The notes beneath the pieces are model-generated. The model saw nothing but the letters and a program-made list of their open reading frames with translations. It ran no database searches and was not told where the DNA came from. Source: a virus. Taken from it: 21,556 bases of DNA. Shown here piece by piece: positions 3,914 through 20,795 of the stretch. Both the position numbers and the translations under genes were made by a program. Each line of letters opens with the position of its first letter. Position 1 is the first letter of the stretch. The DNA lies in the IMG/VR virus record IMGVR_UViG_3300031711_000090, positions 1 to 21,556 of that record. One strand, 5' to 3'.

Positions 3914-3916
3914 ATT

Positions 3917-4114: not shown

Positions 4115-4116
4115 TT

Positions 4117-4797
4117 ATGCTAAGACGCACCATTAATCCAGAGGTAAGGGTCATCGACGAAAAAACGGGCATTGTGGAGTACGTGGCCAGCGATGAAACG
4201 ATCGACAGCTACCGCGAGGTGATCAAGGCGGATGGGTGGCGGTTTGACGAGTTCAAGAAGAACGCACCGTTTGTGGACTCGCATGATTATTCGACGCTAG
4301 CAAACCTGCTAGGGCGGGTGGTTGATTTCCGAGTGGAGCAAAAGCGGCTGATTGAAACGGTAAAATGGGCGGTGGACGTACCAGAGAACGCGCTGGCGCA
4401 ACTGGGTTTCAACATGACGAAGGCGGGCTATCTCAAAGCGGTGTCGGTGGGGTTTGTGCCGACGCAATACGCCACAAAATGGGACGCGGACACGAAGGCA
4501 TGGAAATCCGCACTACAAGCGTGTGGGCGCAAGGAAGATGACGGAGTGGCCTGTATATATCTGGAACAACAGCAAAAAGAGCTGAGCGCCTGTGTGATTG
4601 GCGCGAATCCAAACGCCCTGGCAAGGGGCTACAAGGCGGGGGTCCTAACGGACGCTGACCTTGATTTACTTTCCATCGAGAGGGCTAAACGCATCACCGT
4701 CAACCCGGCTGATAGTCCCGCTGCTGCCGCGTTGACCAGGCAGCGGGCGCGGATGGCGTTCCTGGTGGGGTTAACAACAAAAATCAAATCAATCTAA
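4117..4797 (+). CDS. HK97-type prohead protease (peptidase S78 family)
   Basis: This serine protease matures the prohead by cleaving the capsid protein's N-terminal scaffold segment. The catalytic histidine is H56 in PFVDSHDYS and the nucleophile is S110 in LKAVSVGF, the family's usual His...Ser arrangement. The segment KELSACVIGANPNA (155-168) corresponds to the family's conserved LLEWSVVPxPANPxA stretch. I chose ATG 4117 because GAGG lies 5 nt upstream and the family similarity begins about 20 residues later. An in-frame extension to 4033 would add only a Gly-rich leader inside the preceding gene. At 226 aa it has the usual length. It lies directly before the capsid gene, as expected. Confidence 0.92.
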   Translation: MLRRTINPEVRVIDEKTGIVEYVASDETIDSYREVIKADGWRFDEFKKNAPFVDSHDYSTLANLLGRVVDFRVEQKRLIETVKWAVDVPENALAQLGFNMTKAGYLKAVSVGFVPTQYATKWDADTKAWKSALQACGRKEDDGVACIYLEQQQKELSACVIGANPNALARGYKAGVLTDADLDLLSIERAKRITVNPADSPAAAALTRQRARMAFLVGLTTKIKSI

Positions 4798-4799
4798 TT

Positions 4800-6197: not shown

Positions 6198-6220
6198 GCC
6201 CATACGGCAACAAACCGAAA

Positions 6221-6230
6221 GGAAAGGATC
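6221..6230 (+). promoter_or_regulatory. Double Shine-Dalgarno before the secreted head-region gene
   Basis: Two overlapping AAGGA-type cores (ending near 6223 and 6228) stand before ATG 6234, the nearer at 5 nt. This is one of the strongest ribosome binding sites in the window and suggests high translation, in keeping with an abundant product. Confidence 0.6.
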
Positions 6231-6233
6231 TAA

Positions 6234-6689
6234 ATGAGAATTATTAAACAGGTGTTTGGAGTGGCGCTGGTTGTCACCTCGCTGATTGGCACAGCGCAGG
6301 CGCAATACAAGGTCACAACTTTGGTGACGACGAATGACGTGCCAAACAGTTCGACCACGACAGCAAATTTGGGTGGACCGATAACGGCGACCAAATATGG
6401 CGAAGTGGGGCTGTCCATTCAGTTCGCGTTGAACGCGGCGGGAACTACCGCCTGCACTTTCAACTTTGTGAAGTCGCCAAATGCGGGAACCAATTACGAA
6501 ACCGGCGCATGGTACTCGGTATCGATGGTTCCGAACGGCACTACGATGGTCTCGACGAACGTCACGGTGACAATGGGGCCGTTTGGCTACTTGAAGCCAT
6601 TTTCGTTTGTGGCGGCAAATAACACTGCCGCGATGACGAACATCTCGATCCAGTACGTGTTAAAACCAAATCGACTGGACGGTAAGTAG
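6234..6689 (+). CDS. Small protein with signal peptide next to the capsid gene (decoration-like position)
   Basis: The 151-aa product starts with a textbook Sec signal: a basic n-region (MRIIK), a hydrophobic core (VFGVALVVTSLIG) and an AQA cleavage site before Q24. The remainder is Thr/Asn/Val-rich, likely all-beta (NVTVTMGPFGYLKPFSFVAAN), with no cysteine pair or catalytic motif I can see. It occupies the place where many phages encode a capsid decoration or head-fibre protein, and it is followed by a strong terminator. A signal peptide is unexpected for a decoration protein, which must reach the cytoplasmic head. It could instead be a lysogen-expressed envelope or surface protein. Confidence 0.82.
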   Translation: MRIIKQVFGVALVVTSLIGTAQAQYKVTTLVTTNDVPNSSTTTANLGGPITATKYGEVGLSIQFALNAAGTTACTFNFVKSPNAGTNYETGAWYSVSMVPNGTTMVSTNVTVTMGPFGYLKPFSFVAANNTAAMTNISIQYVLKPNRLDGK

Positions 6690-6710
6690 GTTTAGGCCGA
6701 AGGGTCACGG

Positions 6711-6742
6711 CCCGGCGGCGTCGAGGGTCGCCGCCGGGTTTT
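6711..6742 (+). terminator. Intrinsic terminator between head and tail modules
   Basis: CCCGGCGGCG (6711-6720) pairs perfectly with CGCCGCCGGG (6729-6738) over 10 bp, with an 8-nt loop, followed by TTTT (6739-6742). It sits 22 nt after the stop of the secreted head-region gene. The T-run is short, so termination may be partial and tune the ratio of head to tail transcripts. Confidence 0.85.
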
Positions 6743-6758
6743 AGCCAAAATTACAAAT

Positions 6759-6938
6759 ATGCCAATTCCAATAGGGCCGAGAGAAAAGATGGCCAGCGAA
6801 GCCTGTCGGGCTGGACGCGGTGAGCCGGAGATAAAAGACCGCATGGTTCGCCGGCTTCACGTGCGTAAGGGCAACCCACGGGCAGATGCGCGAAAAGTGG
6901 AACGAGAAGGCGTGATTGCCGGAGCTGAGGAGCAATGA
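6759..6938 (+). CDS. Small basic ORF (59 aa) coupled to the connector gene
   Basis: The ATG at 6759 opens a 59-codon frame that ends in an ATGA overlap with the connector start at 6935, the coupling used elsewhere in this operon. The product is strongly charged (REKMASEACRAGRGEPEIKD, RKGNPRADARKVEREG) with no hydrophobic segment. No family is recognised. The first 40 nt after the terminator contain no obvious strong promoter. It may be a genuine small head-tail joining accessory protein or only a leader ORF that promotes translation of the connector. Confidence 0.5.
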   Translation: MPIPIGPREKMASEACRAGRGEPEIKDRMVRRLHVRKGNPRADARKVEREGVIAGAEEQ

Positions 6939-7561
6939 TCGCAGGGCTGACAAATTTGGATACGCTGAAAAAGGCGCTGCTGGCGGAAACGCTGGTGAAT
7001 GAGACGAGGTTTGATTTGATGATTCAGACCATTGGTCTGGGCGTGGCTGGGATATTTAACGCGTTCACGAATCGGCGACTGGCTTGGATGCTCGGAGATA
7101 CTATCACGTTCTCCGGAGACCGCCCGCACTATTATTTACCGCGCTACCCGATTTTAAACGTGATGAGCGTGCAGATGAAGTATTTCCGCACGGACAATTG
7201 GAACGATATCAGCGACCAGCCGATCACAGTGAACTACGAAACCGGCTTAATTCATTTTGGATATACGCTTGGGCGTTTTCCTTTGCAGGTGAAGGCGATT
7301 TGGGATGGCGGCTATTGGTTTGAACCGCTGGAGCCTGATGATGATGCATATCCGAGCACGGCGCCAGTTGGGGCTGTTTTATTGCCGGATGATTTGAAAG
7401 CGGCCTTCCTTTTGCAATGCGAGGAGGTCTGGGCCCAGAGAGATAAGCTCGGAAGTGGAATTATAGATAAGCCCGGCGCGCAAAGCGGACTGTCGAAACT
7501 GGAACTGGCGCCGCTAGTGAAGATGGTTCTGCAAACACACATCAGATACCAACTTTCATAA
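6935..7561 (+). CDS. Head-tail connector (adaptor) protein, gp6-like
   Basis: The 208-aa protein fits the adaptor that sits under the portal and opens the way to the tail. The N-terminal half is helical (LDTLKKALLAETLVNETRFD, then an amphipathic helix ending in AFTNRRLAW). A central beta segment follows (FSGDRPHYYLPRYPILNVMSVQ) with the Tyr/Pro-rich LPRYPI element seen in gp6/gp15-type connectors, and the C-terminal part is again helical (DDLKAAFLLQCEEVWAQRDK). Position supports this: first full gene after the head block and directly before a tail-completion protein. The assignment rests on pattern and context. Confidence 0.72.
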   Translation: MIAGLTNLDTLKKALLAETLVNETRFDLMIQTIGLGVAGIFNAFTNRRLAWMLGDTITFSGDRPHYYLPRYPILNVMSVQMKYFRTDNWNDISDQPITVNYETGLIHFGYTLGRFPLQVKAIWDGGYWFEPLEPDDDAYPSTAPVGAVLLPDDLKAAFLLQCEEVWAQRDKLGSGIIDKPGAQSGLSKLELAPLVKMVLQTHIRYQLS

Positions 7562-7563
7562 CT

Positions 7564-8145
7564 ATGGCTGGGCAAATCCAATTGAGTGAGGAGGCGCAGA
7601 GGATTCTGAGGGATCTGGAGGCGCCGGAATGGATGATGGAGGCGATGGCGGGGTCGATGAAGCGAGAGAATCAATTTACGCTGTCGAAAATCCAGAGGGA
7701 TTATCTGACGGGGCGCGGGCCGTTTCCGCCGGAGGAGCATAAGCTGGGGGTGAGATCGAGCCGGCTGCGCGGGGCGGCCAGGGCATCTGACCCGGTGGTG
7801 TCTGGCACGCGGGTGCAATCGAGCATTGGCGATAATGTGGAGTATGCGGCGATTCATGAGTTTGGCTGGCGGATTGTGCATAAGCCGCGGACTGGCACGG
7901 TGAGGCTGCGGACGGATGCGCAGGGGAATTTGCTGAGGCAAGCTGCCGGGACTGGCGCGCTGGGGCATTTGGCGATTTTTGCGAAGGCGGAGCATAAGCG
8001 GGTAAAGGTGCAATTCCAAAGCAAAGGCTTTGAAACGGTCATTCCGGAGCGGGCGCCGTTCCGGACGGGGATCGGCGAACGGTTGGATGCAATGGGACGC
8101 GGGATGAGCAGTGACCTGGTCGCGGAGTGGCGCGCCCGAAAATAG
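7564..8145 (+). CDS. Tail completion protein, HK97 gp10 / phage virion morphogenesis-like
   Basis: The 193-aa product has the hallmark VEYAAIHEFGW (about 97-107), which marks HK97-gp10-like and Mu gpG-type tail completion proteins. It is preceded by a basic region with GRGPFPPEEHKLGVRSSRLR (about 55-75) and followed by a flexible basic segment (RTGTVRLRTDAQG). Such proteins cap the head-proximal end of the tail and help head-tail joining. The gene begins 2 nt after the connector stop. The C-terminal motif RAPFRTGIGERLDAM also fits the family's usual R-PFL-G-xG ending. Confidence 0.85.
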   Translation: MAGQIQLSEEAQRILRDLEAPEWMMEAMAGSMKRENQFTLSKIQRDYLTGRGPFPPEEHKLGVRSSRLRGAARASDPVVSGTRVQSSIGDNVEYAAIHEFGWRIVHKPRTGTVRLRTDAQGNLLRQAAGTGALGHLAIFAKAEHKRVKVQFQSKGFETVIPERAPFRTGIGERLDAMGRGMSSDLVAEWRARK

Positions 8146-8168
8146 ACACAAATTAACACGCATTTTTG

Positions 8169-8939
8169 ATGATTACAGCTTTGGACATTATCGACCGGTT
8201 GCCTTACGAGCTGAAAGACAGGCTCGAGGCGGATTCGTTTTTTGAGGATATCCCGGTGGTAGTGGCAGAGGACGGTAATGTGAAGCGTGAGATTGAGAAG
8301 AAACAAGCCGCGGTGACAGCGAAGAGCGGACGGCGCGGGGTGGCGGTGCTGGTGCTGCAAATTGTCGCGGACGACGATTTCCCGAATTTGGGGTTTGGTC
8401 CGATGACGCTGCGTCCGGCGTTCCAGGTGATCGAGAACGTGGAGTTGAATCGGGACACGAATGGGACGCATAAGTCGGCGCGCAAGGTTGCTCGGCGGAT
8501 CCGCGACGTGGTGAAGGTGTGCGGGATGCAGGGCTTGGTGGCGAGTATTCAGACGGATAAGCCGTGCATTGAGCCGGTAAATTTGGGTGAGGAGATGGGA
8601 AAGCTGCTCAAGGGGTATCAGGTAAATTTTAAGTGTTTCGAAATTCCGGATAAGAACATGAGCCAGGTGCAAACGCCGGTGTTTAGGTCGCTCATGCCGG
8701 CAGGGACAAGTCCAGGGAGTTCTTCTGCCGCATTCCAGGTGGTGATTGATTGCGCGACTCCGGAGGCGACGATTTTCTACACGCTGGATGATTCGTATCC
8801 GCGGGAAGGGAACCCGCAGGCGCATGTTTACGCGGATCCGATCGATGTGCCGGTGAGCGGGTTTATTTTGCGGGCATGCGGGTATGGGGCGGGGATGATT
8901 GCGAGCTGGGTGAACCGGGCGGAAATCGTGGTTCAATGA
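8169..8939 (+). CDS. Probable tail terminator with C-terminal chitobiase-like beta domain
   Basis: Residues 1-165 look like a small alpha/beta tail terminator of the Gp37/DUF1834 type, which stops tube polymerisation: an N-terminal helix (ITALDIIDRLPYELKDRLEA), strand GVAVLVLQIVAD (57-68) and the helix HKSARKVARRIRDVVK. This part is judged by order and shape. Residues about 168-256 form a separate domain with ATPEATIFYTLDDSYPREG and a terminal FILRACGYGAGMIASWV. This closely fits the CHB_HEX_C-type immunoglobulin-like domain found at the ends of chitobiases and surface proteins. ATG 8169 is preferred over the preceding TTG. No catalytic residues are expected in the beta domain. Confidence 0.72.
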   Translation: MITALDIIDRLPYELKDRLEADSFFEDIPVVVAEDGNVKREIEKKQAAVTAKSGRRGVAVLVLQIVADDDFPNLGFGPMTLRPAFQVIENVELNRDTNGTHKSARKVARRIRDVVKVCGMQGLVASIQTDKPCIEPVNLGEEMGKLLKGYQVNFKCFEIPDKNMSQVQTPVFRSLMPAGTSPGSSSAAFQVVIDCATPEATIFYTLDDSYPREGNPQAHVYADPIDVPVSGFILRACGYGAGMIASWVNRAEIVVQ

Positions 8940-8969
8940 AACAAGCACACAGAGTAACAGAAAACTGAA

Positions 8970-8973
8970 AGGA
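8970..8973 (+). promoter_or_regulatory. Shine-Dalgarno for the tail tube gene
   Basis: AGGA lies 5 nt before ATG 8979 in an A-rich 39-nt gap. It is among the clearer ribosome sites here and suits a product needed in many copies. Confidence 0.5.
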
Positions 8974-8978
8974 ACTTT

Positions 8979-9974
8979 ATGTCAGTCACTTTATATACGG
9001 GACCGGGGAAGGTTTACATGGGCGCGGCGGGCATTTTCCCACAAGAGGAAAATGGGCAAATCGTCGCGACGGTGAATCAAGAGGCGAATAAGGTCGCCGC
9101 CGGGATGCATGGCCGGGTGAGCGCGACGCAGGGTGATGGGACAGCGAAGGTGGCGCTGACACCTTTCGACAATTGGGGTCTGCTGGGTGTGCTGTTTCCG
9201 GCGTTTTTGGGGGTGAAGGTAGGAGCGACAGCGGCGGCGTTTGTGAAGGGGACGCGACCGCATAATCCGGGGGGCGCGGGGGACGCAGCTTGCGTGCTCT
9301 GGGGCAATGATGGCCGGAAATATTCTTTTCCGCATGCGGCGATTACGAAGCATCCGGACATGCATTTAGGTGTGGATAAACCGCTTTACGGTGGGATTGA
9401 AATCACGGCGCTCGGGGCGACGGGTGTGGCAATGGGGACTGCGGGGTTTCTTTACACCATCACGGAGAGTGGAGCGGCGGATCCCGGCGGGCCGATGACG
9501 CTGGCGGATTTTGTGAGGGGCCGCTGGACGGGCGTTTATGGGACGGTGGCTGGCTTTGGCGGCGACGCCGGCGGGACGCCGATTGAAGCGGAGGATGAGT
9601 GGACGATTTCGGCGGATATCAAGTACTCCACCAGGCCGGTGCAAAAGTTGACGCGGTGTTATGTGCTGGATTCGGTGGAGTTTATGGCGAAGGTACGCCC
9701 GTATGGTCCGACGCACACGCAGATCGACGCCGCGCTCGGGATGCATAGCGGACGGCTGCTGGGGTCGAGGTTTGCGACGTCCGGCATTGACCTGGTGTTG
9801 ACTGGGCCGCCGATTGGAGGCACGGCGAAGACTATCACGCTGAAGAATGCGGACGTGGTGGGCGCGGGCTACGAGTTTGGCGGAACGAAGCTCGGGACTG
9901 GGGAAATAGGGTTTATCAACGGGATGACGTTTACGGCGGGGGCGCCGGGAAGCTTGATTGAATTTTCGGCATAG
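8979..9974 (+). CDS. Probable major tail (tube) protein
   Basis: The 331-aa protein is Gly/Thr/Ala-rich and likely beta-rich. It starts SVTLYTGPGKVYMG, the usual style of tail-tube N-termini (a short statement of the tube strand), and contains FDNWGLLGVLFPAFLG and a late beta segment (EWTISADIKYSTRPVQ). The strong ribosome site and position after the tail terminator and before the tape measure fit the tube subunit. I see no signal peptide. The extra length compared with minimal tube proteins (150-250 aa) could mean an added surface domain, but I cannot place its boundary. A structural model would decide. Confidence 0.65.
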   Translation: MSVTLYTGPGKVYMGAAGIFPQEENGQIVATVNQEANKVAAGMHGRVSATQGDGTAKVALTPFDNWGLLGVLFPAFLGVKVGATAAAFVKGTRPHNPGGAGDAACVLWGNDGRKYSFPHAAITKHPDMHLGVDKPLYGGIEITALGATGVAMGTAGFLYTITESGAADPGGPMTLADFVRGRWTGVYGTVAGFGGDAGGTPIEAEDEWTISADIKYSTRPVQKLTRCYVLDSVEFMAKVRPYGPTHTQIDAALGMHSGRLLGSRFATSGIDLVLTGPPIGGTAKTITLKNADVVGAGYEFGGTKLGTGEIGFINGMTFTAGAPGSLIEFSA

Positions 9975-9997
9975 GACCGATGGGACCGATAGGACCA
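9971..9997 (+). repeat. Tandem 9-bp repeat, three units (left copy)
   Basis: Three units ATAGGACCG-ATGGGACCG-ATAGGACCA follow one another, overlapping the tail tube stop and ending just before the next gene. The AGGA in the last unit lies 8 nt before GTG 10003 and may act as its Shine-Dalgarno. A related three-unit tract in the same orientation occurs at 17418-17444. Confidence 0.9.
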
Positions 9998-10002
9998 ATG
10001 AC

Positions 10003-10407
10003 GTGAAGATAAGTTACCGAACACAAGGCAGCGGGGCTTATACGCTGCTGGCGGATGATACGGCGGGGACTTACATCTTCGGATTCCAACCCCGGATGAT
10101 GGGGCGGAGCCAGGTGACGCCGCTGTTTCGCAGCTCGAAACCGTTTGTGGCGGCGCGGGGGAATCGGCTGTGGCAGTTGGGGGGGACTGTCATCAAGGAT
10201 AACGGAACGGCGGCGGCCGCTGCAGCTTTCATTCAATCGAATGCGGCGGCATTTCCAGATTTTGTGGATTTGAAAATCGAGGAGGGTGCGACGGCGATTT
10301 ATTTGACTCCGGCGGTGCTGGTGGAGTTTTCACCAGCGGTGAATGGGGCGGAGACGGTGATTTCTTATGGGTTTGTGGGCGGAGACCTGACGACGACGGC
10401 GCCATAA
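10003..10407 (+). CDS. Hypothetical tail-region protein (134 aa)
   Basis: GTG 10003 is taken as the start because the frame upstream runs only through the 9-bp repeat tract (TDGTDRTND), which is unlikely to be protein, and an AGGA sits 8 nt before it. The product is a compact alpha/beta protein: early beta strands (KISYRTQGSGAYTLLADDT), a run of six alanines (TAAAAAAFIQSNAAAF) and C-terminal strands (VLVEFSPAVNG). I recognise no family. Its place after the tube gene is where a tail assembly chaperone or a minor tail protein would be, but no frameshift partner is seen. Confidence 0.72.
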   Translation: MKISYRTQGSGAYTLLADDTAGTYIFGFQPRMMGRSQVTPLFRSSKPFVAARGNRLWQLGGTVIKDNGTAAAAAAFIQSNAAAFPDFVDLKIEEGATAIYLTPAVLVEFSPAVNGAETVISYGFVGGDLTTTAP

Positions 10408-10410
10408 GAA

Positions 10411-10439
10411 GTGGCGAGCCACCTAGCGGTGGGGACCAC
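10411..10439 (+). repeat. Two small hairpins with GTGG/CCAC stems before the fibre gene
   Basis: GTGG-CGAG-CCAC (10411-10422) and GTGG-GGA-CCAC (10429-10439) are two short palindromes separated by CTAGCG. The first GTGG can also pair with the last CCAC. There is no T-run, so this is not a terminator. It begins with GTGGCGAG, a motif repeated at two other junctions of the downstream cassette. Confidence 0.55.
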
Positions 10440-10454
10440 TAGATAAAAGATAAT

Positions 10455-13400
10455 ATGAAACCGAAATGGATTCTGGCGGTGGTGATGGTGATGACGCTGG
10501 TGAGCGCGCAAGGCGCGGTGGTGACGTTTTCTGAGGGGCGACTGGCGAGCGGGGCCCAGAATCGGCTGATTACGATTTCACTGGCGAGTGATCCGCTGGC
10601 GGTGACGACGAATATTGTCTTTGGGACACCGATGAAGCTGCAGCCGGTGGGAGGCGTGGTGACGGTGACTAACCTGGTGGCGGCGAATTATTGGGTGCGG
10701 ATTGACGGGGTGGAGAAGCCGATGTTCATGCCAGTGCCGGACTCGACGAATACCTATAATGCGGTGGATTTGATCACGGACGGGCTGAAGCACATGATTG
10801 GGCAGACGAATTATGTGCTTATCGCAGGGCTGCCTACGGTGAGCTCGATTACGTCGACGGATACGGTAGTCGTGCAGGTGGGGGCTTTCCCCTTCAACGC
10901 GCCTCGGCAAATCTCCGGCAGCGGTCTTGCAACCAGCTTGTCTTTGATGGGATTGGCGAGCACGGGTTTCGTGGCCCAGACGGAGGCGCCGCTGGCGAGC
11001 ACGAATTATGTGAACTCGGTTTTTGCGGCGGCGCTGGCGGCGAGTGTGAGTGGGGTGGCGAGTGTGAACGGGCGGACAGGGGCGGTGAGCCTGGTGAGTG
11101 GAGATGTGACGGGGGCGCTGGGGTTTGTGCCGGTGACACCGAGCCAGTTTGCGAATGCGCTGACGAATAATGAGGCCGTGGCGTTCGCGCTGCATGGCGC
11201 CGTGACGATTAATCCGAATCTTGGAACTCCTGGTTTTGGACTTGATGTGCAGCCATCGAGCGGATTTAACGCGCTGAGTGTGAGGGATCGGAATGGGGTT
11301 TTGACAAGCTGGTTTGACCAGGACGGAAAGCTTCATGCTGATGGCGGGTTTCTAAGCAACCTTGGGTTATCCGCGTTGCAGGCCGGAGGGGCGACGGTGG
11401 GCCAGGCGCTGATATACAATGGCAGCATTTGGGCGCCGACAACGATTGTGGGTGGTGGTGGTGGCGCTCCGGGATTCACAGTGGGGACAAACGTTACGAC
11501 GTTTCTGGGTGGGCTCGGCGGGACTAACACGGTGCTGAATGCGGATGTGTCGCACTCGGAGGTGGTGGCATCGACAAACAAGTTAAATACGGACCTGCAG
11601 GCGCAATTGGCGCCGACGCTGGCGAGGTTTCGAGCGCAGACACAGTTCTCAGATATGCTGGATCCGGGTGGACTGCCGATCATTGACGGGAACACGAATG
11701 TGGGTTTTCGCAGGATTTACGATCCGCTGGGGCTTCTGTCTGTAAAGATTGAGACAAATCTCGTGACGTTTTCGCAGGCGGTCAAGGGGTTGGGACCGGT
11801 GTCGGCGAATAATTTTCAGGGGACGGTGGGGAGCTCGAATATAGCGGGAGTGGTGGCGCAAGCGAGCCAAGCGGCGGTGAGCGGTTTGACGATGAGTTAT
11901 GGTCCGAGGCTGGCGCTGGCGGTGTTTATTTGCGGTGATTCCTGGTCGGATACGAACACGGCGACTGGGGTGGCGCCGTACGGACTTTGGACGGAGATGT
12001 TGAGGACGAACCTGATCGGGGCGGGCTACACGATAGCGGCGTGGAGCAATAACGCGCATGCGGGCTACACGATCGGAGACCAGACAAATAATTTTGAGGT
12101 GTGGTATGGACCGATGACGAATTGGGTGGGGAGTGGGACAAATGTGCTGTTTGTGGATCTGACTGGAATCAATGACAGCCGGGGCTATGACGCGACGGGA
12201 TTTTGGGTGCCGACAGCAGGGCAGGCTTTTGCGGCGAGCACGAATATGTGGTCGCGGGCGCGGGCCAAGGGGGCGACGGTATTTGCGGCGACGGTGCCGG
12301 CGTCGGCGTTTCCTGGGACGGTGGAACCGGCGAGCTTTTTTAGTTTTCGGACAACTTACAATTCGGCGGTGCTGGGGACTCCAGGGCTATACGACGGGCT
12401 GGCGGATTTGAGGTCGGTGTTTATGAATCCGCAAAATACGTCGCTTTATCAATCATCTGATGAGCTGCATCCAACTACAGCCGGTCATGTGGAGCTGGCG
12501 CGTTTGTGGATGGAGGCGATTTCATCGTCGCTGTCGGCGCGGCCGTCGATGAGGGCGATGCCGACTGAGCTTGACTGGGTGAGCGCGTTACAGAATCGCA
12601 TGGTGAGCCCATCAATCAGCGGAGGATTTACAATCACGGACCCGAACGGAACGCCGAGCATGACGCAGTATTCGACCAATATTGCGGACTCGATTGGGAC
12701 GGTGCTGGTGCTGACAAATCCATTTGTTTCGGGCCACAGGCTGATGGCCAGGGTGCGGGCGTTTATACCTGGGCCCGGCATCGCAAATGACGCGATAGCG
12801 TTGACGTTTACGGATCCGGATCATGGCTTCACGAATCTCGATGGGCTGATCATCACGCGGGATGGGAAGGTTTATGGGGATGCTATCAGCATGTCGAATA
12901 CGGTGCCGCCGAATGTGACGTTGGTGAATCAAGCCACAATGATAGCGGCGAGTGGAAGCCCGAATGGGTATTATTTGGATTCGTGGGGACAATCGGCAGC
13001 GACTCCCTTGAATGTGTGGATGACGAATGCCGCGCTGGGCACAAATCTGTTTCGGCTGGAGACGGTGTTGTCCGGGACGGCGCCGACAGCCAAGACCTGG
13101 AGTTTTCATTTTCAAGATGCGGCTTTCACCGATCATTTGGGAATGGAAGTCAATTCGCAGGGGGATGGGTATTTCCCAGGGCGAGTGACGGCTGCGGGTG
13201 GGGCGAGCATTTTGCTGAGTGACGTGACATCGGTTTTGGGATTCACGCCGAGCGCGGCGGAATTGACGAATGGGCAGACGACACTGGTGAGACTTGGGGG
13301 AAAGTTGTGGCTGGAGAATTGGGGCGCAGCAAACACGAATGCGCTGACTTTTTTTGGGCCGACGAATAGCGCTTCGGTGGATTTTTGGAGGGCGTTTGAC

Positions 13401-14321
13401 GGGACGGGCAGCTATGTCGCAAGCCTGGATAGCCAAGGCAGGCTGAACGCAAATTACATCCATGTTTTGCTGGCTAGTCCGAACACCACGGCGGCCTTCA
13501 ACTCTTTGGGTGATTTGACTTCGGTGGCGACAACTCCGACTGAGCTGGGTTATGTGCATAACGTCACAAGCTCGATCCAGGCGCAGCTTAATGCGCTGGC
13601 GAGCGCGGGTGGGGGGAATCTGAACGCGGTGACGAATAATGACACGCGGTCGATTACGCTGAGCAACGGTCTGACGGTGGTGGGGCCGATGACAATCATT
13701 TCGTCCACAAATATTGATTGGTCGGTGAACGGGGTTTTGACGGGGTGGCTGGCGGCGTCAAATGGATTTTATGGCGCGCTGCACGGGCAGGCGGACACGG
13801 CGAATGGGTTAAGTGCCACGGCGAGTCTAAGCGGCGGGACGCAACTGGCGATGGTGTATTACGATAATAATGGGCATATAGCCACGATGAGCCAGGGCGG
13901 AACGGCGAACTTGCTGCATGGCGGATCAGGTTCGACGGCGCCGGCGTTTGGGCCGGTGATGGGCAGTGAGGTAAGCGGGGCGGTGGCGACGGCCACGGGG
14001 GCGAGCTATTCCACCAATGCGTTTGATGCGACCACTAATGTTTTCGGCGGCAATATTGTGCTGGGGCAGTCTTGCACAACAAATTTCTCAGGCAACGTGA
14101 CGATCAGCGGTTTAACGAGTTTGCCGGGGTCGACGGAGCGAGCGGGAAGATTTATGGGGTTGAACACGGACTCGGCGACGCACACGGTGACGACGCCGGC
14201 GAGCTGGCGATGCTCGGATTACACGAGCACCCACTATGTCACTAATGGCTTTGCGATTGCGCTGGTTCCGGATGTGTTGCCGGGGCAGATGACGAATTGC
14301 GCGGTGGCGTACTTCAAGTGA
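10455..14321 (+). CDS. Large tail-fibre-like protein with signal peptide and embedded SGNH/GDSL esterase
   Basis: The 1288-aa protein opens with a signal peptide (MKPKWILAVVMVMTLVSAQG, cleavage near 19-21). Fibre-type motifs follow: SVNGRTGAVSLVSGDVTGAL (203-222) continuing into LGFVPV, a second copy DVTSVLGFTPS (923-933), and TPTELGYVHNVTSSIQAQLN (1027-1046). These are hallmarks of trimeric phage fibres. Residues about 484-692 form an SGNH hydrolase: block I ICGDSWSD with S496, block III GINDSRG with N573, and block V DELHPTTAGH giving D669 and H672. Such enzymes de-esterify glycans, and fibre-borne ones strip acetyl groups from host surface polymers. A Gly-rich hinge is at 333-340. The remaining beta-rich regions (about 720-1288) are likely receptor-binding. 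The signal peptide is odd for a virion part. Confidence 0.87.
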   Translation: MKPKWILAVVMVMTLVSAQGAVVTFSEGRLASGAQNRLITISLASDPLAVTTNIVFGTPMKLQPVGGVVTVTNLVAANYWVRIDGVEKPMFMPVPDSTNTYNAVDLITDGLKHMIGQTNYVLIAGLPTVSSITSTDTVVVQVGAFPFNAPRQISGSGLATSLSLMGLASTGFVAQTEAPLASTNYVNSVFAAALAASVSGVASVNGRTGAVSLVSGDVTGALGFVPVTPSQFANALTNNEAVAFALHGAVTINPNLGTPGFGLDVQPSSGFNALSVRDRNGVLTSWFDQDGKLHADGGFLSNLGLSALQAGGATVGQALIYNGSIWAPTTIVGGGGGAPGFTVGTNVTTFLGGLGGTNTVLNADVSHSEVVASTNKLNTDLQAQLAPTLARFRAQTQFSDMLDPGGLPIIDGNTNVGFRRIYDPLGLLSVKIETNLVTFSQAVKGLGPVSANNFQGTVGSSNIAGVVAQASQAAVSGLTMSYGPRLALAVFICGDSWSDTNTATGVAPYGLWTEMLRTNLIGAGYTIAAWSNNAHAGYTIGDQTNNFEVWYGPMTNWVGSGTNVLFVDLTGINDSRGYDATGFWVPTAGQAFAASTNMWSRARAKGATVFAATVPASAFPGTVEPASFFSFRTTYNSAVLGTPGLYDGLADLRSVFMNPQNTSLYQSSDELHPTTAGHVELARLWMEAISSSLSARPSMRAMPTELDWVSALQNRMVSPSISGGFTITDPNGTPSMTQYSTNIADSIGTVLVLTNPFVSGHRLMARVRAFIPGPGIANDAIALTFTDPDHGFTNLDGLIITRDGKVYGDAISMSNTVPPNVTLVNQATMIAASGSPNGYYLDSWGQSAATPLNVWMTNAALGTNLFRLETVLSGTAPTAKTWSFHFQDAAFTDHLGMEVNSQGDGYFPGRVTAAGGASILLSDVTSVLGFTPSAAELTNGQTTLVRLGGKLWLENWGAANTNALTFFGPTNSASVDFWRAFDGTGSYVASLDSQGRLNANYIHVLLASPNTTAAFNSLGDLTSVATTPTELGYVHNVTSSIQAQLNALASAGGGNLNAVTNNDTRSITLSNGLTVVGPMTIISSTNIDWSVNGVLTGWLAASNGFYGALHGQADTANGLSATASLSGGTQLAMVYYDNNGHIATMSQGGTANLLHGGSGSTAPAFGPVMGSEVSGAVATATGASYSTNAFDATTNVFGGNIVLGQSCTTNFSGNVTISGLTSLPGSTERAGRFMGLNTDSATHTVTTPASWRCSDYTSTHYVTNGFAIALVPDVLPGQMTNCAVAYFK

Positions 14322-14324
14322 CGC

Positions 14325-14346
14325 GTGGCGAGTGGTGAGTGGCGAG
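14325..14346 (+). repeat. Imperfect GTGGCGAG direct repeat
   Basis: GTGGCGAGTG-GTGAGTGGCGAG fills the gap between the fibre stop and ATG 14347. It consists of GTGGCGAG at both ends with a GTGAG spacer. It supplies the purine-rich GAG just before the start. Similar tracts occur at 10411, at 16761 and inside the terminase gene (773-803). Confidence 0.7.
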
Positions 14347-15408
14347 ATGAAAAGAACGATTTTAGCTGTGGTTGCATTGCTGAGCTGGGGGACGGCTTTT
14401 GGGCAGTTCACGTTCAATGATGCGGGCTTTTTGGGTGCGCTCACTCCACCAGCCGCCACTTCGGGTGGCTCGGCGCCGGTGATTTCGAATGTGAGTTGCG
14501 GAACGCCGACCAGCTCGGGGATGACGATTACTTGGAACACGGACGTGTCGACGGTGAATAATAAGGTGCAGTACTCGATCCACGCGGACATGAGCGCATC
14601 CAGCACGGCGACGGGGAGTGATGGTGGGACTTCGCACAGCGTGCCGCTTACAGGGCTGACTGCGAGCACGGTCTACTACTACCAGGTGCAAAGCGACGCG
14701 AACTCGCAGACGACGTTTTCGAGTGAGGGGAATTGTACGACGGCCGCGGGTGGAAACCTGCTTTCGGCGATGAATCCTAACTTTGTTTGGCTTAACACGA
14801 CAAATGTGACGCTGGTTTCTGGGACGCAAAATGTGACCAATTGGGTTGATTGCTCGAATCTCTTCGTGCTGAAGGCGAGAAGCACCTCGGCTTACCCCAC
14901 AAACAACACCTCAGCAAATGGCGGGGTTTGGTTCACGGGTAATGGCAACTGCTATTTGACGAATCTGTCTGTGCCGGCAGGGATTTCTTTTTCGTCCAGC
15001 GGGAATTGGACGCTGGCTTGGCGGTCTGCGGTGAACTCGGGTAACTCGGGCCGCGGGGCATTATCCATTCCAAACACAGGGGACGCCGGGGTAGTTTTCG
15101 GGAACCCAACCACGCCTTCATTGAGCGTGATTTACGGGGCCACGGATGTGAGTCGAACGCTGGTGGCGGGGACGCTTTACTCGATCATGCTAAGCTGCTC
15201 GAGCGGGACTTGGACGCTGTACACTAATGGCGTCTCGGCATTGACCGGCACTGGCTTTAGCACGTGGGTTGCTCAGTGTGTTGGGAATGATCCGACCACC
15301 GACCCGTTAACGGGCTACATCCAAAAAATGGCCTATTGGACGAACTCGGCCAAGACACAGACGGACGCAACGAATTGGCACACGTTTTGTGTGCAGAATA
15401 ACCCGTGA
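14347..15408 (+). CDS. Secreted Fn3 + LamG-like lectin protein
   Basis: The start ATG 14347 gives a clean signal peptide (MKRTILAVVALLSWGTAFGQ, cleavage near 18-20); the in-frame GTG at 14332 lies in a repeat tract. Residues about 44-133 are an Fn3/purple-acid-phosphatase-N-like domain (PVISNVSCGTPTSSGMTITW, then GLTASTVYYYQVQSDA). Residues about 140-353 look like a LamG/ConA-type jelly roll (SSSGNWTLAWRSAVNSG, LYSIMLSCSSGTWTLYTNGV). Both domains usually bind carbohydrate or protein surfaces; no catalytic motif is seen. The last four bases overlap the next gene (GTGA), so the two are translationally coupled, a pairing typical of binding and hydrolysing partners. Confidence 0.85.
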   Translation: MKRTILAVVALLSWGTAFGQFTFNDAGFLGALTPPAATSGGSAPVISNVSCGTPTSSGMTITWNTDVSTVNNKVQYSIHADMSASSTATGSDGGTSHSVPLTGLTASTVYYYQVQSDANSQTTFSSEGNCTTAAGGNLLSAMNPNFVWLNTTNVTLVSGTQNVTNWVDCSNLFVLKARSTSAYPTNNTSANGGVWFTGNGNCYLTNLSVPAGISFSSSGNWTLAWRSAVNSGNSGRGALSIPNTGDAGVVFGNPTTPSLSVIYGATDVSRTLVAGTLYSIMLSCSSGTWTLYTNGVSALTGTGFSTWVAQCVGNDPTTDPLTGYIQKMAYWTNSAKTQTDATNWHTFCVQNNP

Positions 15409-16754
15409 AATACTGGGCGATCATCTTATTTGCAGTGTGCAGCGCGAGCGCCCAGGTGGCTTATCCTTTGAAGCTTTCGGCGGGGAAGCATTATTTGGTG
15501 GATCAGAATGGGACGCCGACGTTTTTGCAGGGGGAAGGGGCTTACTCGATGATTGCACAGTTGAGCGGGCCGCAGGCGGATCAATACCTGTCGAACCGAT
15601 GGACGAAGGGGTTTAACTGCGCGCTGGTGAATTTGATTGAGCATCAGTTTACGACGGTGCATCCCGCTCCGGCCAACGCCTACAACGTCAAGCCGTTCAC
15701 TGGGCTAATATCGGGGACCTGGTACGATTTCTCGACGATCAACGCCGACTATTTCACGAATGTGGATTATCAGCTTTTACGCGCGAGCAATTACAACGTG
15801 TGCTTGTTCGTCTTCCCGGCTTACTTAGGCTTCGGCGGCGGGAGCGAGGGTTGGTACGCGGATATGACGCACAATTCGCTTACTTCGCTGACAAACTGGG
15901 GCAAGTACGTCGCGGGCCGGTATATGAATTTCCCGAACATCGTGTGGGTGGGAGGTGGGGACTACAACGCGGCGGACAAGACAGGGATCGACGCGGTGAT
16001 GTATGGGATCTTGAGCGTGGATTCGAATCACATTGTTTGCGCGCACAGTGCTCGAAACCACAGCGGGTTGACGGATTACACTGAGTCTTGGGATCTATTC
16101 AATTCGACCTACACGGCGAACATCACAGCGAGCCAGACGTTGACGGATTATCAGCGGAGCCCGGTATCGCCGACGTTTATGATTGAATCGGATTACAATG
16201 GGGAAAACAGCGCGACGGCGTTGACTTGCCGGGAAGAGGCGTGGCAAACGGTGTTTTCGGGTGCGATGGGGAATTTCTTCGGCCAGACAGCGACTTGGCA
16301 GTTTACGAGCGGATACCTCACAGAGTTGGACAATAGCGCAAGCACCAGCATCACAAACCTGGTGAAGTTGCTGCGGACAAAGAGTTGGTGGCTAGGGGTG
16401 CCGGATACGAATAGCTCTGTTTTTACCAGTGGGCGGGGCACGGGTGGGATTTCGTCGCAGGGGTATATCTCCGGGCTGAGAGCGACGGATGGGACGTTTG
16501 TGCTGGCTTATTTTCCGGATGGGGTGAGCACGCCGACTATCGACATGAGCAAGCTGCAGGCGCAGGTGAGCGCGAGTTGGTTCAATTGCCGGGATGGCAG
16601 CTCGAGCAATTTTGCGAGTTATGCGAACTCTGGGAGCCGAACTTTTACGGCGCCGGATTCGAATGACTGGGTGCTGGTGCTGGATGCGCCGACTGTGGCG
16701 ACGACGTTTACGAAGACTTACGGCGCGGGAAAGCATGGGACGGGAACGAGGTGA
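15405..16754 (+). CDS. Secreted DUF4038-type glycoside hydrolase with putative collagen-binding-like C-terminal domain
   Basis: The GTG at 15405 overlaps the previous stop as GTGA and gives a signal peptide (MKYWAIILFAVCSASAQ). The rest follows the DUF4038 (apiosidase-like TIM barrel) pattern: HYLVDQNGTPTFLQGEGAYS, then WVGGGDYN (D186), MIESDYNG (E261, candidate catalytic acid) and CREEAWQTVFSGAMGNFFGQ, which fits the family's R-x-x-x-W-x-x-L-x-G-x-x-G-x-x-Y-G. Residues about 345-428 match the usual C-terminal beta domain (FVLAYFPDG, WFNCRDGSS, DWVLVLDAP). Family members cleave terminal glycosides of plant or microbial polymers; the substrate here is unknown. At 449 aa it is complete. I infer a depolymerase-like role. 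Confidence 0.88.
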   Translation: MKYWAIILFAVCSASAQVAYPLKLSAGKHYLVDQNGTPTFLQGEGAYSMIAQLSGPQADQYLSNRWTKGFNCALVNLIEHQFTTVHPAPANAYNVKPFTGLISGTWYDFSTINADYFTNVDYQLLRASNYNVCLFVFPAYLGFGGGSEGWYADMTHNSLTSLTNWGKYVAGRYMNFPNIVWVGGGDYNAADKTGIDAVMYGILSVDSNHIVCAHSARNHSGLTDYTESWDLFNSTYTANITASQTLTDYQRSPVSPTFMIESDYNGENSATALTCREEAWQTVFSGAMGNFFGQTATWQFTSGYLTELDNSASTSITNLVKLLRTKSWWLGVPDTNSSVFTSGRGTGGISSQGYISGLRATDGTFVLAYFPDGVSTPTIDMSKLQAQVSASWFNCRDGSSSNFASYANSGSRTFTAPDSNDWVLVLDAPTVATTFTKTYGAGKHGTGTR

Positions 16755-16760
16755 AGGGAA

Positions 16761-16770
16761 GTGGCGAGGG
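16761..16770 (+). repeat. GTGGCGAGGG motif before the HTH gene
   Basis: A third junction copy of the GTGGCGAG motif lies 3 nt before ATG 16774 (or directly before GTG 16771). Its GAGGGG may double as Shine-Dalgarno, though the spacing is very short. Confidence 0.5.
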
Positions 16771-16773
16771 GTG

Positions 16774-17010
16774 ATGGGCGAGATTACAGAACGTCAAAGG
16801 AGTGTGGTGAAGGCATGGATGGCGGCGGGGTCGGTGAAGGGCGCGGCGGGGCGGCTGGGGCTCGCGAGCAAAACGGTGGAGTACCATTTAACTGCGGCGC
16901 GGTATCGGCTGGGAATAGGGCCGCTGATGTGGCTGGCAGTTTGGGCAACAAAAAACGGAATGGTGCCGGGGGTGAGACGGGGGCTTGGCGCGGGAAAGAA
17001 TAAGATATGA
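16774..17010 (+). CDS. Stand-alone LuxR/GerE-type HTH protein
   Basis: The 78-aa protein is little more than a LuxR-type helix-turn-helix: ITERQRSVVKAWMAAGSVKG (4-23), the turn AAGRLGLAS and the recognition helix KTVEYHLTAARYRLGIG (33-49). No receiver, PAS or autoinducer domain precedes it. The C-terminus is a short hydrophobic stretch (PLMWLAVWA) and a basic tail. It would bind DNA, probably as a dimer, in the cytoplasm. ATG 16774 is chosen; GTG 16771 would add one residue. The reading frame upstream to 16594 is a shadow of the hydrolase gene. It ends in an ATGA overlap with the next gene. A DNA-binding regulator inside a tail-fibre cassette is unusual. Confidence 0.8.
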   Translation: MGEITERQRSVVKAWMAAGSVKGAAGRLGLASKTVEYHLTAARYRLGIGPLMWLAVWATKNGMVPGVRRGLGAGKNKI

Positions 17011-17408
17011 AAAAATATTTGGCGTTGATTGGAATGGTGGCTTTCGTAGGACTGGCGGCTGGGACGGCAAGCAATCGAACGCTGCAATTTAAGTGGGCGC
17101 CGAATCCGGTTGATCTGGGCGGGATGTCGACGAATGACTACTGCACGAATATCACGATTGTGGCGTTTTCGGTCACGGACTGCACTGTGCCGACGAACTT
17201 ATGGCCAGCGGTGGCGAGCTGGCCGGCGACGTATTTTTTGAACCAAGGGCCGCCAGGGTCGCAATGGGCTGCGGTGGTGCAGACGGATCAGTCGGTGAGG
17301 TTTTACATGCTGGCAGCGACGAACGGGAGTGGAGTTGCTAGCCCTTTTTCAAATGCCGCCACTTGGGTGCCGGCGCCCCCGGCGGGAGTGGTGCTGGGAA
17401 TAAGGTGA
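17007..17408 (+). CDS. Small secreted Fn3-like protein (133 aa)
   Basis: Start ATG 17007 overlaps the HTH stop. A signal peptide is clear (MKKYLALIGMVAFVGLAAGT). The mature part is one beta-sandwich, Fn3-like domain: TLQFKWAPNP at the start and VRFYMLAATNGSGVASPFSN near its end, the Y-x-x-x-A-x-N-x-x-G-x-S-x-x-S pattern of the last Fn3 strands. It contains two cysteines (in TNDYCTNIT and VTDCTVP) that could pair after export. No enzyme motif is visible. It closes the secreted group and precedes the right copy of the 9-bp repeat. Confidence 0.78.
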   Translation: MKKYLALIGMVAFVGLAAGTASNRTLQFKWAPNPVDLGGMSTNDYCTNITIVAFSVTDCTVPTNLWPAVASWPATYFLNQGPPGSQWAAVVQTDQSVRFYMLAATNGSGVASPFSNAATWVPAPPAGVVLGIR

Positions 17409-17417
17409 CTGTTCGGA

Positions 17418-17444
17418 ATAGGACCGATGGGACGAATGGGACGG
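17418..17444 (+). repeat. Tandem 9-bp repeat, three units (right copy)
   Basis: Units ATAGGACCG-ATGGGACGA-ATGGGACGG lie in the 43-nt gap before the tape-measure gene, in the same orientation as the tract at 9971-9997. Both tracts have exactly three units, begin with ATAGGACCG, are preceded by CGG(C/A), and are followed by ATG. Confidence 0.9.
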
Positions 17445-17451
17445 ATGTTAG

Positions 17452-18783
17452 ATGGAACGCGAGTTTAAAATACTAATTACGGGGGACGCGGGCGGGCTGG
17501 CAAGCTCGGCTAAGGAGGGGGCGAGCGCGCTGCGGGATGAGCTGAATCCCGCGGTGGAGAGTTTCCACAAGAACTGGAAGGCGGCGGACGCGTCGGTGGA
17601 GGAATCTGTAAGCAAGGGATCGCTAAGCAAGATGGTGCGTGGTCTGAGCCATCAGTTTCCGGAGCTGGGGATGTTGGCGCGGGTGGCAATCAACCCGATT
17701 GTGGGCGGGTTTATGGCGCTGCTGGCGTCCGCAAAGGCGGTGAATAAGGTTTTTACGCAGATTATCGCGAATTCAAACACGGGGATTTTTTCAGGGACGT
17801 TTTCGCGGGATATGGATGCGTCCACGAAGGCGGCGGTGGAGGGTGAGGTGGCGTGGAGGTCGTTTGAGCGGGCTTTGAGCGCGGTGGCTGCGGCTGGGAA
17901 GTCTGTAAAGACAAACACTGAGGAAGCGATTGCGGCGATTCGGCAGCATGGGGTGGCGGTGGCAGAACAGCAAAACGCGGCCAAGGCGCAAGAGCTGGCC
18001 AAAATAAACATGCTGGAGGAGACAGACCAAATGGGGCATCCGCAGGCAATCCAGGCGCGGCTTGATATCGAGGACGAGTATGCGCGTCGGAAGCTGGTGG
18101 CGAATATCGAGGCTAAGGATGCGCAGATCGAGGCGAAGCGTAAAGAGGTGGAAAAGCTGAGCCAGGGCGCCGAGCATGAGGAGCAAAACGCGGCGGCCGC
18201 GCGGAAGGAGTATGAGGATGCGCAGCGGGATTTGGAACGGTTTCAGGCGCTGAAGTCGGCCACTGATAAGGCGCTGGCGGAGACGACTAAGCAGGTGAAT
18301 GCGCTGCAAGGGGCTAATTTCATTGGTCCGGGGCAGATTAACCAATTGGACACTGCAAGGGCGCTGCAAGCGCAATTAAGGACGCGTGCAGGGGTATTGG
18401 GTGGGCAAGGGGTGGATTACGCGGACGCAGCGCGGGCGGCGAAGGAGCGCTATGACACCTCGATGACGCGGGCGCGGGAGCTGCGCGGGAGCGCGACTGA
18501 TATCGGGCAGGGAATACCAGCTGAGCAGGCGCTGGCGAATCAAGGGTATCGCGACGCCGGCGAAGTGGCGGCGACGGAGCGGCTGACGCGGACTTACAAA
18601 GCCACGGCGGATGTGGCTAAGGAGCAAAGCCAGGTGAGTGGAGCTATCGACAAAGCGGTGGAGGGAATGCATGGGGTGGCGGTGTCGAGTCTGATAAAAT
18701 TGCAGGCGACGACACAAGCGCTGGCGGATTTGCAGAAGAGGGTGGCGGGGTTGGAGGCGGCGAAAGATAACCGACATCTGTAA
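17452..18783 (+). CDS. Tape-measure-like coiled-coil tail protein
   Basis: The 443-aa product begins EREFKILITGDAGGLASSAK, in the style of tape-measure N-termini. It then has a hydrophobic stretch (VAINPIVGGFMALLASAKAV, about 80-100), which tape measures often carry, and long charged helices (about 170-300: EAKDAQIEAKRKEVEKLSQG and beyond). At about 0.15 nm per residue it would set a tail of roughly 65 nm, so it is short for this class. It ends in a TAATG overlap with the next gene, which looks like a hub protein and supports the role. Alternatively it is a tail chaperone-like helical protein. I see no lysozyme or peptidase domain. Confidence 0.7.
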   Translation: MEREFKILITGDAGGLASSAKEGASALRDELNPAVESFHKNWKAADASVEESVSKGSLSKMVRGLSHQFPELGMLARVAINPIVGGFMALLASAKAVNKVFTQIIANSNTGIFSGTFSRDMDASTKAAVEGEVAWRSFERALSAVAAAGKSVKTNTEEAIAAIRQHGVAVAEQQNAAKAQELAKINMLEETDQMGHPQAIQARLDIEDEYARRKLVANIEAKDAQIEAKRKEVEKLSQGAEHEEQNAAAARKEYEDAQRDLERFQALKSATDKALAETTKQVNALQGANFIGPGQINQLDTARALQAQLRTRAGVLGGQGVDYADAARAAKERYDTSMTRARELRGSATDIGQGIPAEQALANQGYRDAGEVAATERLTRTYKATADVAKEQSQVSGAIDKAVEGMHGVAVSSLIKLQATTQALADLQKRVAGLEAAKDNRHL

Positions 18784-20795
18784 TGGCCACTTACTGGACT
18801 TTGACTTACGGCGGGCTGGAGAAAAGCTTTGCGGCTTGGGGCTTGGACGAAGAGACGGCGGAAGCGCAGTTCGCCAATATGGCGATTGATATTTTCACGG
18901 TGGCAGTGCCGGGGGCAAAGGTGGAGGCGGACCCGATTTTTGCGTTTGAAGCGGCGGTGGTTATTCAGCGGGCTCGGGTGCTATCACTGATTGATGGAAG
19001 CTGGTCTGGTGGGGTGATTGAATTTCAAGGAAAGCGGCTTTTGCATGTGCTGGACGGGCGGCCGGATTACGAGGGGATTATCTACCAATTTAGCGGGCCG
19101 TGGTACGACATTGCGCAAACGCCTTATCAGCAGACGGTGTACTCTTACTCAGGGGATCCGGATGCGCCGAATGCGGATTTGGTGTCGAATGTGGTGTTGT
19201 TTCAAAAGGTGACGGCGCCGGGTGTGGGCGCGGCGCGCAATAGCGGCCAGCAGATCGGAGACATTTTGCAGCATGTGCTGGATCAATATTCAGCGCAGGG
19301 GATGGCGGCTCCTTACCAGATCGGGACGATTGACCCGGCGGTGAATTTGATGACTTACCAGCTTAAGGACATCAAATGCGATGAGGCTATCCAGATGTGT
19401 CTGCGGAGTTCGCCGGAGGTGAAGGTGTGGTTTAATTATCTGACAGCGCCGCCCACGGTGAATGTGCGGGCGCAGGCGAACTGCACGGCGGCTTCGGTAG
19501 CGATCGGGGATGGGGTATCGCATGAGAGTATAAGGCTCAGCCCGCGGTATGACCTTCAGGCGCGGGCGGTGGTTCTTTATTTTGAGCAGGTGAACACGGT
19601 GTCCGGGGTGAGCTGGCTGCAACGGACGAAGCAAAAGTATCCGGCGGACGGACCTGAAGGCGGGCTGAGGGTGATAGTGCAGACGATTGACCTGGCGGGG
19701 GCGAATGTATCGACGGTGAGCGGGTCGCTGAGTTGCACGGCGGTGGCTAATAACCGGGCCTGGTGGGCGAAGTATATCCCCGAGCTGCAAAGTAAGAAGA
19801 TTCGCGGGTTTTCGGTGGGAGCAATGACTGTGCTGGATGAAACGGGTGCGGCGGTGAGTCTGAGCACTTATCCGAATGTGCTGGATGATGGGTCGAATAT
19901 AGCGACCTGGATGAAGTTAACCGGCGGCGCTGACGTGGCGGGAGTGAAGGCGACGATCACGGCGATTGCTAGCTACACGGAGTGGGATTCAGACGCGAGC
20001 GGGGATCCGGAGACGTCCACGAATGGGCGCAAGTTGACGGTGTTTCCGAGCAAGGGATTGGCGCTGAGGGTGACGCTGACGAATGGGGTGAGCGGGCCTT
20101 ACTCGACGGTGGCAAGCTCGATTGCAGGGGAGGATATCCCAAGCGGATTGGCGCAGTCGATTTGGACTTCACTGAACACATTGCAGTACGACGGGTCGGT
20201 GCAGATTGTGGAGACGGAATGCTCAGGGTCTGTGGGGATGGGCAATGTGCTGAATCTGACAGGCGGCCGGACTGAATGGGCGACGATGAAGGCGCTGATT
20301 CAGACGGTGACGCGGAAGTATGGGACGGGCCAAACGCAGGTGGCAGTGGGGCCGGCGAGGGACTTGAGCGCGGGGGATTTGACGCAGCTATTTTTGATTA
20401 ACCGCAATCGCCGAGTCTGGATGGACCCGAGCTTTCAAAAGTCGCCTGAGATTAGGGGGCGCGCGGCGGTGGTGCTGGGAGCAAAAACGGCTAAGGAAAA
20501 CAGCCAGACGGGGCTCGAGGAGCGGAGCTTGCTGGTGACGTCTGCCGCCAGTGGCGGAAACATCGCGCAGATCATGAAGGATGCGTCCAATAAGCAGTTT
20601 GTGATGAATACGGTGGATTCGGCAGGCGCACAGGTGAGCGCGACTTCGAGTATTAAGATGGCGATGGCGGATATCGAGGTAGGATCAGCGCATCGGCAGG
20701 CTAGTTTTCAATGGTTTTATTTCAAGGATGCGAAGGATTCGTGCTCGGCAAAGAAGTGCCTGGTATTGATGACGGCGCCGGAGGCTGACACGTGA
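18783..20795 (+). CDS. Tail hub / baseplate-like protein
   Basis: The 670-aa protein has the layout of tail hub proteins (gp27 / gpD type) lying at the distal end of the tube. An early beta domain contains GGVIEFQGKRLLHVLDGRPD (76-95) and YQFSGPWYDIAQTPYQQ (101-117). A helical insertion with GQQIGDILQHVLDQYS (155-170) follows, then KDIKCDEAIQMCLRSSPEVK, which resembles the hub stretch that sets the next ring. The start is ATG 18783, coupled to the tape measure. The C-terminal third (about 450-670) looks like another beta region plus a helical tail. No enzyme motif is visible, and the family is inferred from shape and order. Confidence 0.65.
   Translation: MATYWTLTYGGLEKSFAAWGLDEETAEAQFANMAIDIFTVAVPGAKVEADPIFAFEAAVVIQRARVLSLIDGSWSGGVIEFQGKRLLHVLDGRPDYEGIIYQFSGPWYDIAQTPYQQTVYSYSGDPDAPNADLVSNVVLFQKVTAPGVGAARNSGQQIGDILQHVLDQYSAQGMAAPYQIGTIDPAVNLMTYQLKDIKCDEAIQMCLRSSPEVKVWFNYLTAPPTVNVRAQANCTAASVAIGDGVSHESIRLSPRYDLQARAVVLYFEQVNTVSGVSWLQRTKQKYPADGPEGGLRVIVQTIDLAGANVSTVSGSLSCTAVANNRAWWAKYIPELQSKKIRGFSVGAMTVLDETGAAVSLSTYPNVLDDGSNIATWMKLTGGADVAGVKATITAIASYTEWDSDASGDPETSTNGRKLTVFPSKGLALRVTLTNGVSGPYSTVASSIAGEDIPSGLAQSIWTSLNTLQYDGSVQIVETECSGSVGMGNVLNLTGGRTEWATMKALIQTVTRKYGTGQTQVAVGPARDLSAGDLTQLFLINRNRRVWMDPSFQKSPEIRGRAAVVLGAKTAKENSQTGLEERSLLVTSAASGGNIAQIMKDASNKQFVMNTVDSAGAQVSATSSIKMAMADIEVGSAHRQASFQWFYFKDAKDSCSAKKCLVLMTAPEADT

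Follow-up and report, generated by a model that had tools for sequence, protein, structure and literature searches.

The 21,556-nt stretch of viral DNA analyzed here (the window) contains, at 10455-17408, the variable fiber/enzyme host-interaction slot of a Verrucomicrobiota siphophage lineage, in which fibers, lectin-like proteins, and glycan-acting enzymes are swapped as blocks. The cassette is a variant of the known fiber-module kind; what is new and unexplained about it is its export feature, the predicted Sec signal peptides on its products. The repeats found near it are ordinary. The features of the window discussed below are as follows.

6234-6689, plus strand: 151-aa protein with a predicted Sec signal peptide, directly 3' of the capsid gene, the usual place of a capsid-decoration gene
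8979-9974, plus strand: tail-tube-like core gene (331 aa), identified by position and conservation in 28 loci, with no direct family match
9971-9997, plus strand: tandem tract 1, a host-type intergenic repeat between the tube and post-tube genes, outside the cassette
10003-10407, plus strand: post-tube gene (134 aa), a core family in a chaperone-like position, outside the cassette
10455-14321, plus strand: tail-fiber-like protein (1288 aa) with a predicted Sec signal peptide and a weak GDSL/SGNH esterase match at residues 494-678
14317-14346, plus strand: junction tandem repeat of a second type, with an AGTGGCG unit
14347-15408, plus strand: Fn3/purple-acid-phosphatase-N and lectin-like protein with a predicted Sec signal peptide
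15405-16754, plus strand: apiosidase-like glycoside hydrolase with a predicted Sec signal peptide and a C-terminal putative collagen-binding domain
16735-17010, plus strand: GerE/LuxR-type HTH protein of about 91 aa, with no signal peptide at its start, a regulator inside the slot
17007-17408, plus strand: 133-aa protein with a predicted Sec signal peptide and no Pfam match
17418-17444, plus strand: tandem tract 2, degenerate, in the gap before the tape-measure gene
17452-18783, plus strand: tape-measure-like protein (443 aa), the right slot boundary, with a homolog in relative L004 (E 2e-9)
18783-20795, plus strand: 670-aa tail-tip-like core gene, next after the tape measure and found in 17 loci

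The sequence-only reading had listed a 134-aa gene, a fiber, a lectin-like protein, a glycoside hydrolase, an HTH protein, and an Fn3 protein between the two tracts. The first five are present, but the Fn3 assignment does not hold, as the fn3-type domain found by Pfam belongs to the lectin-like protein, and the 133-aa protein has no match. The window fiber had no match among PHROGs or in the phage collection, the tube family had no homolog in the phage collection, and a single-protein search of viral contigs with the 670-aa protein returned no relative. A tube profile search of genome contigs likewise found nothing. BLASTP between the 134-aa gene and its neighbor in L004 was not significant, and homology came from profiles. 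An AlphaFold model of the tube, built from two sequences, had a pLDDT of 28 and was discarded without use in fold searches.

Relatives were collected with the tube profile, which matched 14 of 388 Verrucomicrobiota genomes and, after enlargement, 28 of 346 genomes of one class. Because the tube relatives were found among Verrucomicrobiota genomes, we assign the phage lineage to that group. Genes were called and profiles built for 30 loci, and a member of the 134-aa post-tube family comes next after the tube in 26 of them. It is therefore a core gene and not the cassette member it had been taken for, which leaves tract 1 outside the cassette and sets the true cassette at 10455-17408. The gene order in relatives is tube, post-tube, cargo, in some cases a minor head protein and a neck-like protein, then tape measure and tail tip. 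In four relatives (L201, L245, L246, and L247), the slot is empty, and the tape measure and tail tip directly follow the tube and post-tube genes; L004, whose tube is 59% identical, also has no fiber cargo before the tape measure. In at least 12 others (L202, L203, L204, L205, L209, L210, L212, L213, L249, L251, L253, and L258), all closed on both sides, the slot is filled with different cargo of 1 to about 10 unrelated genes each, and further filled loci, cut by contig ends, stand outside these 12. Cargo matches include GDSL (weak), apiosidase-like, fn3, collar, fiber repeat, collagen, BNR_2, and FGE-sulfatase. The gene at the tape-measure position in L203 matches tape-measure families (9e-34), which supports the tape-measure assignment. 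With empty slots in some relatives and different cargo in others, the exchangeable host-interaction cassette of the sequence-only reading is confirmed for 10455-17408.

Several further observations concern the slot and its surroundings. Regulators occur among the fiber genes, namely the GerE/LuxR HTH protein of the window (16735-17010) and a sigma-70-like factor in L203 (12820-13365). A signal-bearing slot protein on the minus strand of L206 (2168-3553) has an FGE-sulfatase domain, a fold type that is diversified by retroelements. Three relatives (L202, L203, and L205) have a separate minor head protein between slot and tape measure, and the portal of the window (1745-3913) is fused to a Mu-F-like domain, so a head gene has moved relative to the window.

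The two tracts are not a product of chance, since the looser pattern (ATRGGACNN)x2+ATRGGAC has two matches in the window and none in 1500 Markov-resampled copies. Tract 1 (ATAGGACCG ATGGGACCG ATAGGACCA) consists of three exact ATRGGACCR units, contains the TAG stop of the tube gene, and fills the gap to the next gene. Tract 2 (ATAGGACCG ATGGGACGA ATGGGACGG) lies within the 43-nt gap 5' of the tape-measure gene. Both had been described as three-unit ATRGGACCR tracts; their position, orientation, and unit count stand, but in tract 2 the motif fits the first unit only, the second and third being ATRGGACGR. A separate contig (L003) that equals window 2901-9997 at 99.99% stops with the final base of tract 1, as is usual for assemblies where a sequence recurs within the sample.

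The same unit recurs in many bacterial genomes. A strict four-unit scan with one genome per species hit mostly Verrucomicrobiota, Lentisphaerae, Hydrogenedentota, and Planctomycetes, along with a few others that include one acidobacterium. Ten tract-bearing genomes held 4 to 419 three-unit matches each, and the reversed control pattern gave zero. Among Verrucomicrobiota, 36 of 388 genomes carry tracts, with up to 85 matches and almost none for the reversed control. The intergenic repeats of PVC/Verrucomicrobiota genomes, (ATRGGACNN)n, share with the window tracts the 9-bp unit, the position between genes, and their occurrence at several per genome; the window tracts differ in sitting inside a phage. 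In the acidobacterial MAG (G009), tracts stand at many sites as closely spaced inverted pairs (about 50 bp), hairpin- or terminator-like, whereas the phage window has single direct tracts. We conclude that both ATRGGACC tracts are intergenic tandem repeats of the host type, without a part in cassette exchange.

Two other explanations of the tracts were weighed. The sequence-only reading had them as recombination or insertion scars bounding the exchangeable cassette, which we now regard as very improbable. The tracts do agree in orientation, show 81% similarity over 42 nt, and roughly flank the block, but a conserved core gene sits between tract 1 and the cassette, so that the left tract is on the wrong side of it. 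Moreover, no three-unit tract occurs in the locus of any relative, whether the slot is filled (at least 12) or empty (4). Only 2 of the 30 genomes with the tube family have three-unit tracts at all, and there they lie away from the phage locus, not at cassette edges and only there as scars would predict. The sequence-only reading had itself named relatives that retain the gene order but lack the tracts, and tracts scattered at random through the host genome, as observations that would refute it; for the repeats both were made, the latter by tens in Verrucomicrobiota/PVC genomes. An origin as fossils of a collagen-like gene was considered because many viral matches are repeat-coding, and it appears even less credible. 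In frame, the tracts read Gly-Pro-Met/Ile, as in phage fiber genes, with tract 1 giving IGPMGPIGPMT and then a stop, and in most viral contigs that have it the strict pattern falls in long repeat-coding frames. In the window, however, the frame stops at once. The two N positions of ATRGGACNN vary freely in host tracts, which appear to be under no triplet-frame constraint and are enriched in predicted intergenic DNA (59 of 130 tracts of fetched loci, or 45%, versus 11% of random points).

The second repeat type of the window, with its AGTGGCG unit, marks cassette junctions: AGTGGCGAG, found at 14317-14346, also occurs at 10410 and about 16760 (16757-16782), with one further copy within the terminase gene (772). 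As no exact 3-unit copy was present in 18 genomes searched, we rejected it as a second host-wide repeat.

Signal peptides were called with one fixed home-made rule, not SignalP, that looks for an n-h-c layout and an A-x-A type cleavage site. In the window, textbook Sec signals start the fiber (MKPKWILAVVMVMTLVSA), the lectin-like protein (MKRTILAVVALLSWGTA), the hydrolase (MKYWAIILFAVCSASA), the 133-aa protein (MKKYLALIGMVAFVGLA), and the post-capsid 151-aa protein (MRIIKQVFGVALVVTSLIGTAQA), the last of which is small and beta-rich-looking. Across the loci, 38 of 69 slot proteins were signal-positive compared with 2 of 232 proteins of core families (Fisher p 9.5e-27), as were 10 of 15 products of the gene 3' of the capsid gene against the same core set (Fisher p 9.8e-13), although the counted loci share ancestry and these p-values overstate their independence. 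Other genes were positive in 21 of 169 cases, and an internal-Met control in 7 of 706. The first cargo gene was signal-positive in 16 of 19 loci; the slot cargo of L204 has no signal peptides. Applied to lambda, TP901-1, P12026, GBK2, and AL, the rule picked only Lom, Rz, holins, and one endolysin, and none of the structural genes.

Hydrophobic N termini of this kind could instead be uncleaved parts of the virion, such as membrane-active or packing segments in fibers, and not export signals. Fiber N termini often anchor to the virion, which counts in favor of such a role, yet we consider it quite improbable. The segments are organized as n-h-c, ending in an A-x-A type site, and the sequence beyond them contains few Lys and Glu residues and many Thr, Ser, and Asn. 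They are also found on proteins that have no relation to one another (hydrolase, lectin, 133-aa protein, and post-capsid protein). In addition, most of the corresponding signals on Cellulophaga phage fiber and pectate-lyase proteins have Ala or Ser as the last residue and Gln next, which is the Bacteroidota signal-peptidase rule (PMC10367356).

Several of the signal-bearing proteins in relatives also carry phage tail domains. The one in L209 matches Phage Tail Collar (2.3e-19) and a tail collar fiber PHROG (1.6e-28), that in L245 matches Phage_fiber_2 (3.9e-8), and that in L202 matches collagen and tail-fiber PHROGs. The L251 protein matches BppU_N at 4.4e-5, above the curated cut-off, and is the only one of 14 aligned relatives to pass; there was no detectable match to TP901-1 BppU. 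The 14 signal-bearing proteins align over a common N-terminal region past the signal, the most divergent only loosely. In three relatives with an empty slot (L201, L245, and L247), the gene for a signal-bearing protein of this N-terminal family is found 3' of the tail-tip gene. The slot resembles siphophage receptor-binding and fiber modules such as BppU/BppL of lactococcal TP901-1, which likewise place variable adhesin genes in the tail operon, and the slot protein of one relative has the BppU_N match given above. It differs from them in that it precedes the tape measure, whereas TP901-1-type modules come after the tail tip, and in that its proteins have predicted Sec signal peptides, whereas TP901-1 structural genes do not.

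A likeness in signal content is found in the cultured Cellulophaga phages phi10:1, phi19:1, and phi18:3, in which fiber and glycan-lyase proteins also form a block and all bear a Sec signal peptide. In phi10:1, this block is placed after the tape-measure/tail-tip region, unlike the slot described here. The fiber and pectate-lyase proteins of these three phages for which virion MS/MS is cited all start with Sec-type signals. The records of the three cite virion MS/MS for most block proteins, and in the five Cellulophaga phages L260 (41847-48878), L265, L266, L267, and L268, every fiber/pectate-lyase gene of the block has a Sec signal.

These observations bear on the main rival to a virion role, lysogenic conversion, in which the signal-bearing proteins would be secreted or displayed by the lysogen (as adhesins, polysaccharide enzymes, or for superinfection exclusion) and would not be virion parts. 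We regard lysogenic conversion as less likely than a virion role. Morons and lysogenic conversion genes likewise form variable accessory cargo among late genes with predicted secreted products, and the signal peptides and the apiosidase-like hydrolase fit such a secreted set, as the regulators in the slots of the window and L203 fit separate control. The slot genes, however, are embedded in the tail operon, and a sigma-70-consensus-only scan, which is a weak test in this phylum, gave no excess of promoters or terminators around them. The collar, fiber-repeat, or BppU_N domains on several signal-bearing proteins of relatives and the MS/MS records of signal-bearing Cellulophaga fibers as virion proteins also argue against it.

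We favor, by a modest measure, the reading that the slot is a host-interaction block whose products are predicted to be exported by Sec and, we infer, attached outside the cytoplasm. During the lytic phase, heads, tubes, and tape measures would be made in the cytoplasm, while the outermost parts of the virion (fibers, enzymes, and perhaps the capsid-surface protein) would cross the inner membrane via Sec and fold in the periplasm. They could then be added to completed particles when the holin has opened the inner membrane, or after lysis. More tentatively, the tailed phages of both Verrucomicrobiota and Bacteroidota may, independently of each other, send fibers, enzymes, and probably a capsid-surface protein through Sec and add them outside the cytoplasm.

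The assembly of tailed phages is regarded as cytoplasmic, and a two-compartment route, if it exists, would be undescribed for tailed phages in the literature searched. Lack of a signal peptide has been used to support a phage origin for a variable binding protein (PMC6199706), and phage genes with signal peptides have been read as host-modifying (PMC10367356). We found no paper describing signal peptides on tail fibers in a literature search with limited coverage of subscription journals. If fibers do carry signal peptides, then in phages of at least two phyla the adhesion apparatus would be exported, would fold outside the cytoplasm, and would be added at a late stage. A prophage "secreted enzyme" may then be a tail part, which would change how receptor-binding proteins are found. 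The question is testable with phages already in culture.

Two structures in the head region of the window were also noted. The 151-aa gene is followed by a long gap (6690-6934) with a strong GC hairpin and then T (ggcccggcggcg ... cgccgccgggtttt); this hairpin, spotted by eye and absent from the scan listing, is likely a terminator that splits the head and tail operons. The terminase-portal gap (1512-1599) holds an inverted repeat with 23-nt arms that are 91% complementary and 42 nt apart.
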